Origin: a virus
DNA length: 31,100 nt
IMG/VR virus record: IMGVR_UViG_3300044638_000961
Location: 1 to 31,100 of that record
Direction: 5' to 3' (one strand)
The position numbers and the translations under genes were made by a program. Positions 23,607-25,346 of this stretch are shown here, piece after piece; the first letter of the stretch is position 1, and every line of letters starts with the position of its first letter. The notes beneath the pieces are model-generated. The model saw nothing but the letters and a program-made list of their open reading frames with translations. It did no database searches and was not told the DNA's origin.

Positions 23607-23846
23607 ATGGAGTTAGAAAAGCTGGCAAAAGCCATGCGAGAGCGAGCCTTACTTATTGAGGGCGACGACTCACTTAGCGAAAGTCTGGCAATAGACGAAA
23701 TCGCAATCAGTAAAGCGAAAGCCGCCAAGCAAAAGCAAGTAGAGAACCTAAAAAAGCTATACTTCAATGCCGGACGCTGGGTAGGCGGGGCCAGAGATCA
23801 GAACGCTAGAGAAGCCTTCGTCAAAATGAAAGCCCGCGAAGTATGA
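23607..23846 (+). CDS. hypothetical helical protein before the methyltransferase
   Basis: A 79-residue charged, helical protein (LEKLAKAMRERALLIE, ISKAKAAKQKQVENLKKLYFNAGRW). It has no recognised domain. A GAAAGGGAGATTAG purine-rich site precedes the ATG. The stop overlaps the methyltransferase ATG (ATGA), so the two are probably translated together. Confidence 0.75.
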   Translation: MELEKLAKAMRERALLIEGDDSLSESLAIDEIAISKAKAAKQKQVENLKKLYFNAGRWVGGARDQNAREAFVKMKAREV

Positions 23847-24412
23847 AAATCGGCAGCTTATTTTCTGGCTACGGTGGACTCGACCTAGCCGTTATGAATG
23901 TCACCGGTGCAGAACTCGCTTGGCATTGTGAATGGGACGACGCACCTTCAAAGATTTTGGAAAAGCGTTTCCCAGGCGTTCCTAATTATCGGGACGTGTC
24001 GAAGGTGGACTTTACACAGGTCGAACCCGTAGACATACTCACCGGCGGGTTTCCCTGCCAGGACTTATCTTTAGCTGGTAAAAGGGCCGGACTAAAAGAA
24101 GGAACAAGAAGCGGACTATGGATTGAGTTCGCGAGAGCAATTGAAGAAATTAGACCAAGATTGGTGGTTATCGAAAATGTCAGAGGATTACTTAGCGCGT
24201 CTGCCCATAGCGACGTGGAACCCTGCTCGTGGTGTATGGGAGACGAACCAGGCGAACCTACTTTGCGCGCACTTGGAGCCGTGGCGGGAAGTCTGGCCGA
24301 CATCGGGTATGACTGCAAATGGACAGGTGTTCGAGCTGCCGACGCTGGCGCACCGCATAACAGATTCCGAGTCTTTATCGTTGCCTACCCCGCGAGCGCA
24401 GGAACCAGGTAG
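23843..24412 (+). CDS. cytosine-C5 DNA methyltransferase, catalytic half
   Basis: A 189-residue protein with the N-terminal catalytic motifs of 5mC methyltransferases: motif I (LFSGYGGLDLA, 6-16), motif IV (GGFPCQDLS with catalytic C72), motif VI (ENVRGLL, E111) and motif VIII (APHNRFRVF, 170-178). A zinc-like pair (EPCSWCMGD) lies between VI and VIII. It ends right after motif VIII, so it lacks the target recognition domain and motifs IX-X. Those are in the next ORF, which overlaps it by 236 nt in another frame. It may form a two-subunit enzyme, as known for M.AquI and M.EcoHK31I, and protect phage DNA from host restriction. Confidence 0.88.
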   Translation: MKIGSLFSGYGGLDLAVMNVTGAELAWHCEWDDAPSKILEKRFPGVPNYRDVSKVDFTQVEPVDILTGGFPCQDLSLAGKRAGLKEGTRSGLWIEFARAIEEIRPRLVVIENVRGLLSASAHSDVEPCSWCMGDEPGEPTLRALGAVAGSLADIGYDCKWTGVRAADAGAPHNRFRVFIVAYPASAGTR

Positions 24413-25346
24413 CACTTCACCAGGCTACGGAGATTCGCTGAACGACTTTGCAAGCCGTGTAACGACGGGTTATGCACCAAAAGACTTATTGCGTTCGCCA
24501 ACTGCTAGTCAGGGCGAAGGCGGAGCGTTAGGCGAGGAAGAAGCTCGCAAGCGTGGCAACACCGTAGGGATTCGTGATCAGGCTATGGACATCGCCAGGG
24601 CTAATGGCGAGAAGGTGAGCCGTGCAGTATTGCCTACCCCAATGGCTCGCGACTACAAGAACGACGCTACACCGCACGAACGTAATGGTGCTATACAGGT
24701 AGATTCAGTCCAGCGAGCTATCTTTCATAGTGGAGAAGTTTTACTGCCGACTACCCGAACCAGCATGGCTAACGGCCCTACCCAAAACGAAATCGCCCAG
24801 GGAAACCCAAAGACCCGTATCGAAACAGAAGTAATGCTAGGGGAAGTGAATTGGGGCAAGTTTCAACCAGCGATCCGAAGGTGGGAAGAAACACTAGGCC
24901 GCCCTTCACCTGCACCTACCAAGCCAGACGGCAAAGATGGAGCGCACCGACTATCAAGTGAGTTCACCGAATGGCTAATGGGGCTACCGGAAGGCTGGAT
25001 AACCGACTGCGGGCTAACTCGCAACGAGGAACTAAAGGCTTGCGGAAACGGCGTAGTCCCACAACAAGCCGAACTAGCCCTTAGAGTTCTGCTCGAAGGC
25101 GTTTCCATACCACGCGGGGGGGGGCAAGTGAATCTACCAACTCCAACCGTTAGTGACACCTTCACGGATAACCTAACCAGCTCACAACAAAAGCCAGGCT
25201 CTATGCACTCCGTAACGCTGCCACAAGCCGTTAGGTGGGTAAGTGGTAGAATAGAAGAAGCGGGCCAAGAGCTATCCACCCTTGACCCGCAGACCGATAA
25301 CGAGACTATCGGCGGTTTCAATGATACTGCCGAAGATAGGCAGTAA
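24177..25346 (+). CDS. methyltransferase recognition / C-terminal half
   Basis: A 389-residue protein in a different frame. It starts MSEDYLARLPIATWNPARGVWE at the ATG 24177, then EPWREVWPTSGMTANGQVFELPTL, SLPTPRAQEPG, LPTPMARDYK, and RLSSEFTEWLMGLPEGW followed by ACGNGVVPQQAELALRVLL. These are the recognition segments and motifs IX-X found at the C-terminus of actinophage cytosine methyltransferases. A TTG 54 nt upstream is an alternative start. A G9 run (25116-25124) is followed by a further LPTPTVSDT segment. It most likely pairs with the catalytic half. Codon use is similar to neighbours. Confidence 0.82.
   Translation: MSEDYLARLPIATWNPARGVWETNQANLLCAHLEPWREVWPTSGMTANGQVFELPTLAHRITDSESLSLPTPRAQEPGSTSPGYGDSLNDFASRVTTGYAPKDLLRSPTASQGEGGALGEEEARKRGNTVGIRDQAMDIARANGEKVSRAVLPTPMARDYKNDATPHERNGAIQVDSVQRAIFHSGEVLLPTTRTSMANGPTQNEIAQGNPKTRIETEVMLGEVNWGKFQPAIRRWEETLGRPSPAPTKPDGKDGAHRLSSEFTEWLMGLPEGWITDCGLTRNEELKACGNGVVPQQAELALRVLLEGVSIPRGGGQVNLPTPTVSDTFTDNLTSSQQKPGSMHSVTLPQAVRWVSGRIEEAGQELSTLDPQTDNETIGGFNDTAEDRQ
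25116..25124 (+). repeat. G9 homopolymer in methyltransferase gene
   Basis: Nine consecutive G residues, the longest G run I noticed, lie just after motif X and before an extra LPTPTVSDT segment. A change of one base would remove the C-terminal 75 residues. Confidence 0.9.

Follow-up and report, generated by a model that had tools for sequence, protein, structure and literature searches.

Organisation of the locus

The window, i.e. the whole 31.1-kb stretch of DNA analysed here, is a virus record in which family searches detected HK97-type portal and capsid genes and a WhiB gene; a tailed phage with an actinobacterial host is therefore the likeliest source. Two overlapping genes, A and B, are flanked by a lambda-exonuclease-like gene upstream and by a helix-turn-helix gene and a RusA gene downstream, and the same gene neighbourhood is found around their counterparts in the Arthrobacter phages Eesa, Abidatro and Leona. 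The features of the locus, with motif coordinates taken from the window sequence, are as follows:

23843..24412, plus strand: gene A, catalytic half of a C5-cytosine DNA methyltransferase (189 aa, frame 0)
23855-23890, plus strand: motif I of A, SLFSGYGGLDLA
24044-24070, plus strand: motif IV of A, GGFPCQDLS, including the catalytic Cys
24163..24179, plus strand: putative initiation signal of B, GGTGG, 9-nt spacer and ATG (from a start-region alignment of 109 loci)
within 24164-24193, plus strand: motif VI of A, ENVRGLL
24177..25346, plus strand: gene B, second half, with N-terminal domain, LPTP modules and motifs IX and X (389 aa, +1 frame relative to A)
24177..24412, plus strand: apparent dual-coding overlap (236 nt; A residues 112-189, B residues 1-78)
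24207..24338, plus strand: N-terminal domain of B, IATWNPARGVWETNQ...WPTSGMTANGQVFEL, wholly within the overlap, with five short predicted strands
within 24350-24391, plus strand: motif VIII of A, NRFRVFIVAYP
24381..24770, plus strand: array of LPTP-type modules, the presumed target-recognition region (module starts near 24381, 24489, 24630 and 24744)
24852..25085, plus strand: conserved C-terminal core of B, WGKF..RRWE plus motifs IX and X (pLDDT 80-95 over most of it)
24948-24998, plus strand: motif IX of B, RLSSEFTEWLMGLPEGW (B residues 258-274)
25044-25085, plus strand: motif X of B, GNGVVPQQAELALR (B residues 290-303)
25116..25124, plus strand: G9 homopolymer in B just 3' of motif X, a possible phase-variation tract and the only run of six or more G or C in the window
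25128-25157, plus strand: module VNLPTPTVSD following the G9

The order of motifs in A, namely I, IV (with PCQ), VI (with ENV) and VIII, is that expected of C5-methyltransferases, and its stop codon lies six residues past the AYP that closes motif VIII. A profile search matches A to positions 1-161 of the 324 in PF00145 (E 6.6e-39) and to TIGR00675 with a score above the family cut-off (E 2.5e-35), while phmmer aligns it with M.HhaI (E 1.6e-17). These matches agree with the initial annotation of this DNA, which had described A as an ORF that carries the four motifs and then ends.

B matches the family phrog_1008 (E 3.5e-60), such that the two overlapping frames belong to separate protein families, phrog_363 and phrog_1008. 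The same kind of search found no significant match for B in Pfam, NCBIfam or PADLOC, and none was found when a B profile was compared at the sequence level with solved structures. In an AlphaFold2 model of B the confident parts are residues 11 to 55 and 225 to 295, approximately; the block-mean pLDDT is 82-92 over residues 11-50 and 72 over residues 51-60, and W21, W40, G44 and G49 are invariant in 75 sequences. The segment of B coded by the overlap is thus predicted to be a confidently folded, family-specific N-terminal domain with no canonical methyltransferase motif. The proposal that the overlap carries conserved parts of both enzyme halves consequently holds as regards the conservation of the B segment, but not as regards any recognised methyltransferase motif within it.

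The LPTP modules that follow have pLDDT values mostly under 40 and differ in number and order between relatives. Motifs IX and X could be located in B as had been claimed, whereas the role of the LPTP modules in target recognition is presumed from their position. The LPTP of B at 24381-24404, in the window as in relatives, is the +1 reading of the terminal (V)AYP codons of A, and in many relatives the stop codon of A is formed by the TAS or TVSD codons of the first module; duplication of this junction may have given rise to the downstream modules. The B gene of Mycobacterium phage Ovechkin (L008) has at least six LLPTP modules in a long array, which suggests that repeats are gained and lost.

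Evidence for coding in both frames of the overlap

Selection on the +1 frame was assessed in unique relatives whose A protein is at least 65% identical (n = 101), against a null model in which A is recoded synonymously with the codon usage of the sequence concerned. From nt 353 to nt 552 of A, the +1 frame is free of stop codons in all 101 relatives, compared with an expectation of 277 ± 13, the stop and identity counts being non-independent in so far as these sequences share kinship. The control region upstream (nt 2-347 of A) contains 727 stops against 763 ± 19 expected; as this is near expectation, the effect begins at the start of B. Pairwise identity in the +1 frame averages 0.465 in the overlap, where the null gives 0.266, and 0.338 in the control region, where it gives 0.294. 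The synonymous diversity of A falls from 0.912 of expectation outside the overlap to 0.615 inside it (Mann-Whitney P = 4.5e-14), which is the outcome of the synonymous-constraint analysis that had been suggested for this locus.

The same pattern is evident in 13 finished genomes of isolated phages from four host genera (Arthrobacter, Mycobacterium, Gordonia and Rhodococcus; GC 0.62-0.69), in which no stops are present when 14.3 are expected; none of 300 null runs was free of stops. About 100 unique contigs share the split and the overlap, among them sequences from independent metagenomes as well as finished phage genomes, and the arrangement is hence widespread among relatives rather than peculiar to the window. 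Using B as a tblastn query, matches were found in 573 phage records; a scan of bacterial genomes gave only four matches, all distant and partial, and a search of plasmids gave only partial matches, mostly from Streptomyces. On these sequence comparisons the overlap is coding in both frames and is kept so by selection, as had been proposed for all 236 nt. Together with the family matches, this supports the original description of a split C5-methyltransferase with a long out-of-frame overlap.

Putative initiation of B

In the window, the putative start of B is an ATG within GAAAATGT, in the E-N-V codons of motif VI of A. At about half of the 109 aligned loci the first start is instead a GTG, 18 nt downstream of the position of the window ATG, in the L-S-A codons. 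In loci of this type the V-R-G codons, some 7 nt before the GTG, contain AAGGGG or AGAGG, and the GTG (+22) is often directly 3' of an in-frame stop (TAAGTG). Even in the high-GC phages Eesa, Abidatro, Geodirt, Ramsey and Ovechkin, the Arg of VRG is encoded by AGA or AGG, and in one relative (L119) a Ser-to-Asn change in A converts the GTG of B to ATG. These putative signals match what would be expected of initiation, and the recurrence of start codons with stretches resembling Shine-Dalgarno (SD) sequences favours internal initiation of B over frameshifting.

Fused and nested relatives

In the phages Ramsey, Derg and OldBen, and in a contig (L023) whose fusion is seen in two metagenomes, A is joined to motifs IX and X in one ORF, with the +1 reading across the corresponding 200 nt still open and similar to the N-terminus of B. 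Residues 1-479 of a model of the L023 fusion align to residues 12-325 of M.HhaI (Z 19.8, rmsd 3.5, 232 aligned; Foldseek E 3e-13), and this match implies, at the level of the model, that A and the C-terminal core of B form one C5-methyltransferase fold completed by motifs IX and X. When residues 228-291 of B are considered alone the top structural matches are weak (Foldseek E about 1, Z about 3), and they are nearly uniformly methyltransferases of the DNMT3/DRM2 type. As the fused chains lack the N-terminal domain of B, this domain may be dispensable for catalysis; the short +1 product of the fused relatives either works in trans or does something else.

In 74 of the 76 cases from a more distant group (L058-L065, L145, L146, L153 and L154-L233), the +1 ORF lies nested within a longer methyltransferase ORF in frame 0. 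Over the 44.9 kb of matched stretch, the +1 frame contains 7 stops where 418 ± 16 are expected. The pair of families seen in A and B recurs in one member (L062): its frame 0 matches phrog_363, besides positions 1-322 of the 324 in PF00145, and its +1 frame matches phrog_1008. The group spans phage and plasmid C5 methyltransferases, with a +1 ORF of the phrog_1008 type open over about 600 nt.

Comparison with known two-polypeptide and interrupted methylases

The beta polypeptide of M.EcoHK31I is encoded in another frame inside the alpha gene. The second gene of the window likewise overlaps the first in another frame, with its 236-nt +1 overlap, and the nested phage group, with a +1 gene inside a longer methyltransferase, has the same layout. 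M.AquI and M.EcoHK31I are both C5 enzymes made of two polypeptides (PMC3404938). In the former, the larger subunit contains motifs I-VIII and the smaller contains the distal recognition part and motifs IX-X; in the latter, both polypeptides are needed, and the small subunit has only motif IX, the large having I-VIII and X (PMC3404938). The cut between motifs VIII and IX in M.AquI is nearly the same as that between A and B, with I-VIII on A and IX-X on the adjoining B. The window differs from M.AquI in that A stops right after motif VIII, in the dual-coded overlap (236 nt in the window), and in that B has repeated LPTP modules and, at its N-terminus, an additional conserved domain. The distribution of motifs is not that of M.EcoHK31I, as A is truncated after motif VIII and B carries both IX and X, the latter at 25044-25085.

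Overlapping frames within an actinophage methylase gene are also present in phage ShiLan, but there they reflect a homing insertion with an endonuclease, whereas both frames of the window appear to be parts of a methyltransferase with no insertion. An intein, intron or HNH insertion was considered for the window and rejected, as a family search detected nothing similar in A or B. While the two-polypeptide kind of enzyme is already known, the dual coding of about 200 nt, the placement of motif X in B and the arrays of modules beside poly-G tracts look under-described.

Interpretation and alternative explanations

The most probable reading, to which we assign a probability of roughly 0.85, is that A and B are two subunits of one phage C5-cytosine methyltransferase, with B translated from its own start codon within the motif VI codons of A. 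A would provide SAM binding and catalysis through motifs I-VIII, and B would provide the target-recognition modules and motifs IX-X. The reading of one stretch of mRNA in two frames, over about 200 nt, would link the output of both subunits, and the overlapped segment of B, a small conserved domain, probably docks B on A. A complex of this kind would be expected to methylate DNA, and may thereby protect that of the phage from restriction.

Two of the alternatives have a negligible probability. A frameshift introduced by sequencing or assembly, or decay of the gene, might be suspected from the frame changes in the A/B region of three relatives (L258, L049 and L057), but the identical split and overlap in finished isolates and in many independent metagenomes, together with selection in both frames, refute it. 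An indel at 24370-24420 and a single continuous ORF in relatives had been named as the marks of such an error, and nearly all relatives in fact keep the split and the overlap. The open +1 frame could alternatively be a by-product of the conserved amino acids and base composition of A, from which part of the +1 similarity does follow (null identity 0.27). This is refuted by the recoding nulls, which retain the A protein and its codon usage and still predict the 277 stops that are absent from the 101 relatives, with the nested group behaving likewise; furthermore, Gly155 of A is encoded by GGG in 98 of 101 sequences, and the same nucleotides code the invariant Gly of the TSGM of B.

Programmed +1 ribosomal frameshifting late in A (e.g. 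at TACCCC) would generate an A-B fusion without B having a start of its own. Shift-prone, CCC-rich codons are indeed conserved there (Pro183 is CCC in 58 of 86), fused A-B ORFs exist among the relatives and methyltransferases are among the non-chaperone predictions of a frameshift-prediction paper (PMC10885494). But a shift at the end of A does not need an open and conserved +1 frame 200 nt upstream, the conserved CCC is accounted for by the LPTP codons of B, and start codons with SD-like stretches are kept where the open region begins, in many cases just after a stop of the TAAGTG type. This conserved start region disfavours frameshift fusion as the main route, and we regard it as improbable. 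Rather more plausible, while still unlikely, is that the N-terminal segment of B has a function apart from the methyltransferase, acting for instance as a regulator or against restriction, and that only some phages have it joined to the recognition half. The reason for considering this is the retention of the short +1 ORF by Ramsey, Derg and OldBen despite their fused enzymes, to which may be added the group in which the +1 ORF is wholly nested. Against it, the window and about 100 relatives have the N-terminus of B and motifs IX-X in one ORF, and the family searches gave no match to a known regulator.

Long overlaps that dual-code two well-defined functional parts and are conserved across the phages of several bacterial genera are uncommon. 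In this case a textbook enzyme fold, fixed by A, shares its DNA with a second conserved protein, providing a clean system in which one DNA encodes two proteins.

Annotation in public phage genomes

The overlap of A and B is annotated in GenBank for the Arthrobacter phages Leona (gp41/gp42, 251 nt) and Andrew (gp43/gp44, 239 nt), which have the same gene pair as the window, but these annotations are silent on dual coding. By contrast, the annotations of Eesa, Abidatro, Jamun and Ovechkin place the start of B 3' of the stop of A. Residues 1-72 of B, used as a query, matched 193 phage records, and in most of the 60 matches listed the N-terminus of B falls under one annotated methyltransferase gene. 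No description of the overlap was found in the literature searched, which was covered in part. If B begins within A as proposed, several public annotations place its start too late, by about 200 nt or more, and versions cloned or modelled from them would be missing part of the enzyme.

Poly-G tracts

The G9 of the window is followed within a few codons by stops in the other two frames. Over the 2 kb from the start of A in 178 relatives there are 59 runs of at least seven G, compared with two runs of at least seven C, and 41 of the 59 are directly upstream of an LPTP-type module; since a plain shuffle expects about 35 such G runs, what stands out is their strand bias and position rather than their number. 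Tract lengths range from 7 to 11 across relatives. Among relatives that are 92-97% identical, lengths of 7, 9 and 10 are found, and two pairs with identical flanks agree in length. Tracts of 7-11 G precede LPTP modules in the B genes of L014, L015, L016, L021, L022, L045, L081, L091, L093, L095 and L100, and in several of these the tblastn pieces switch frame at the tract.

A tract may also be positioned at the 3' end of A. Such a tract lies at nt 553 of A in L023 (2635-2643), L241, L049 and L057. As a G9, in L023 and L241, it joins A in frame to the modules and motifs IX-X; at other lengths A ends, and in L049 and L057 A is out of frame. It is possible, as a tentative hypothesis, that the poly-G tracts near LPTP modules are slippage switches, the length of the tract at the 3' end of A setting whether the two halves are fused, B is separate or there is no reading at all; errors in the assembly of homopolymers are an alternative source of the length variation. 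If slippage does occur, this would be a phase-variable phage methyltransferase alternating between one-chain and two-chain forms, and the G9 at 25116 would switch the module after motif X. Were recognition modules to be switched in this manner, phages would be answering host restriction phase-variably.

In L030, a G9 is found at nt 406 of A, inside the dual-coding overlap, where a slip would alter both proteins. L019 and L023 have further tracts of G6-G10 about 1.6 kb past the start of A, and in these two relatives slippage-prone tracts may extend beyond the methyltransferase.
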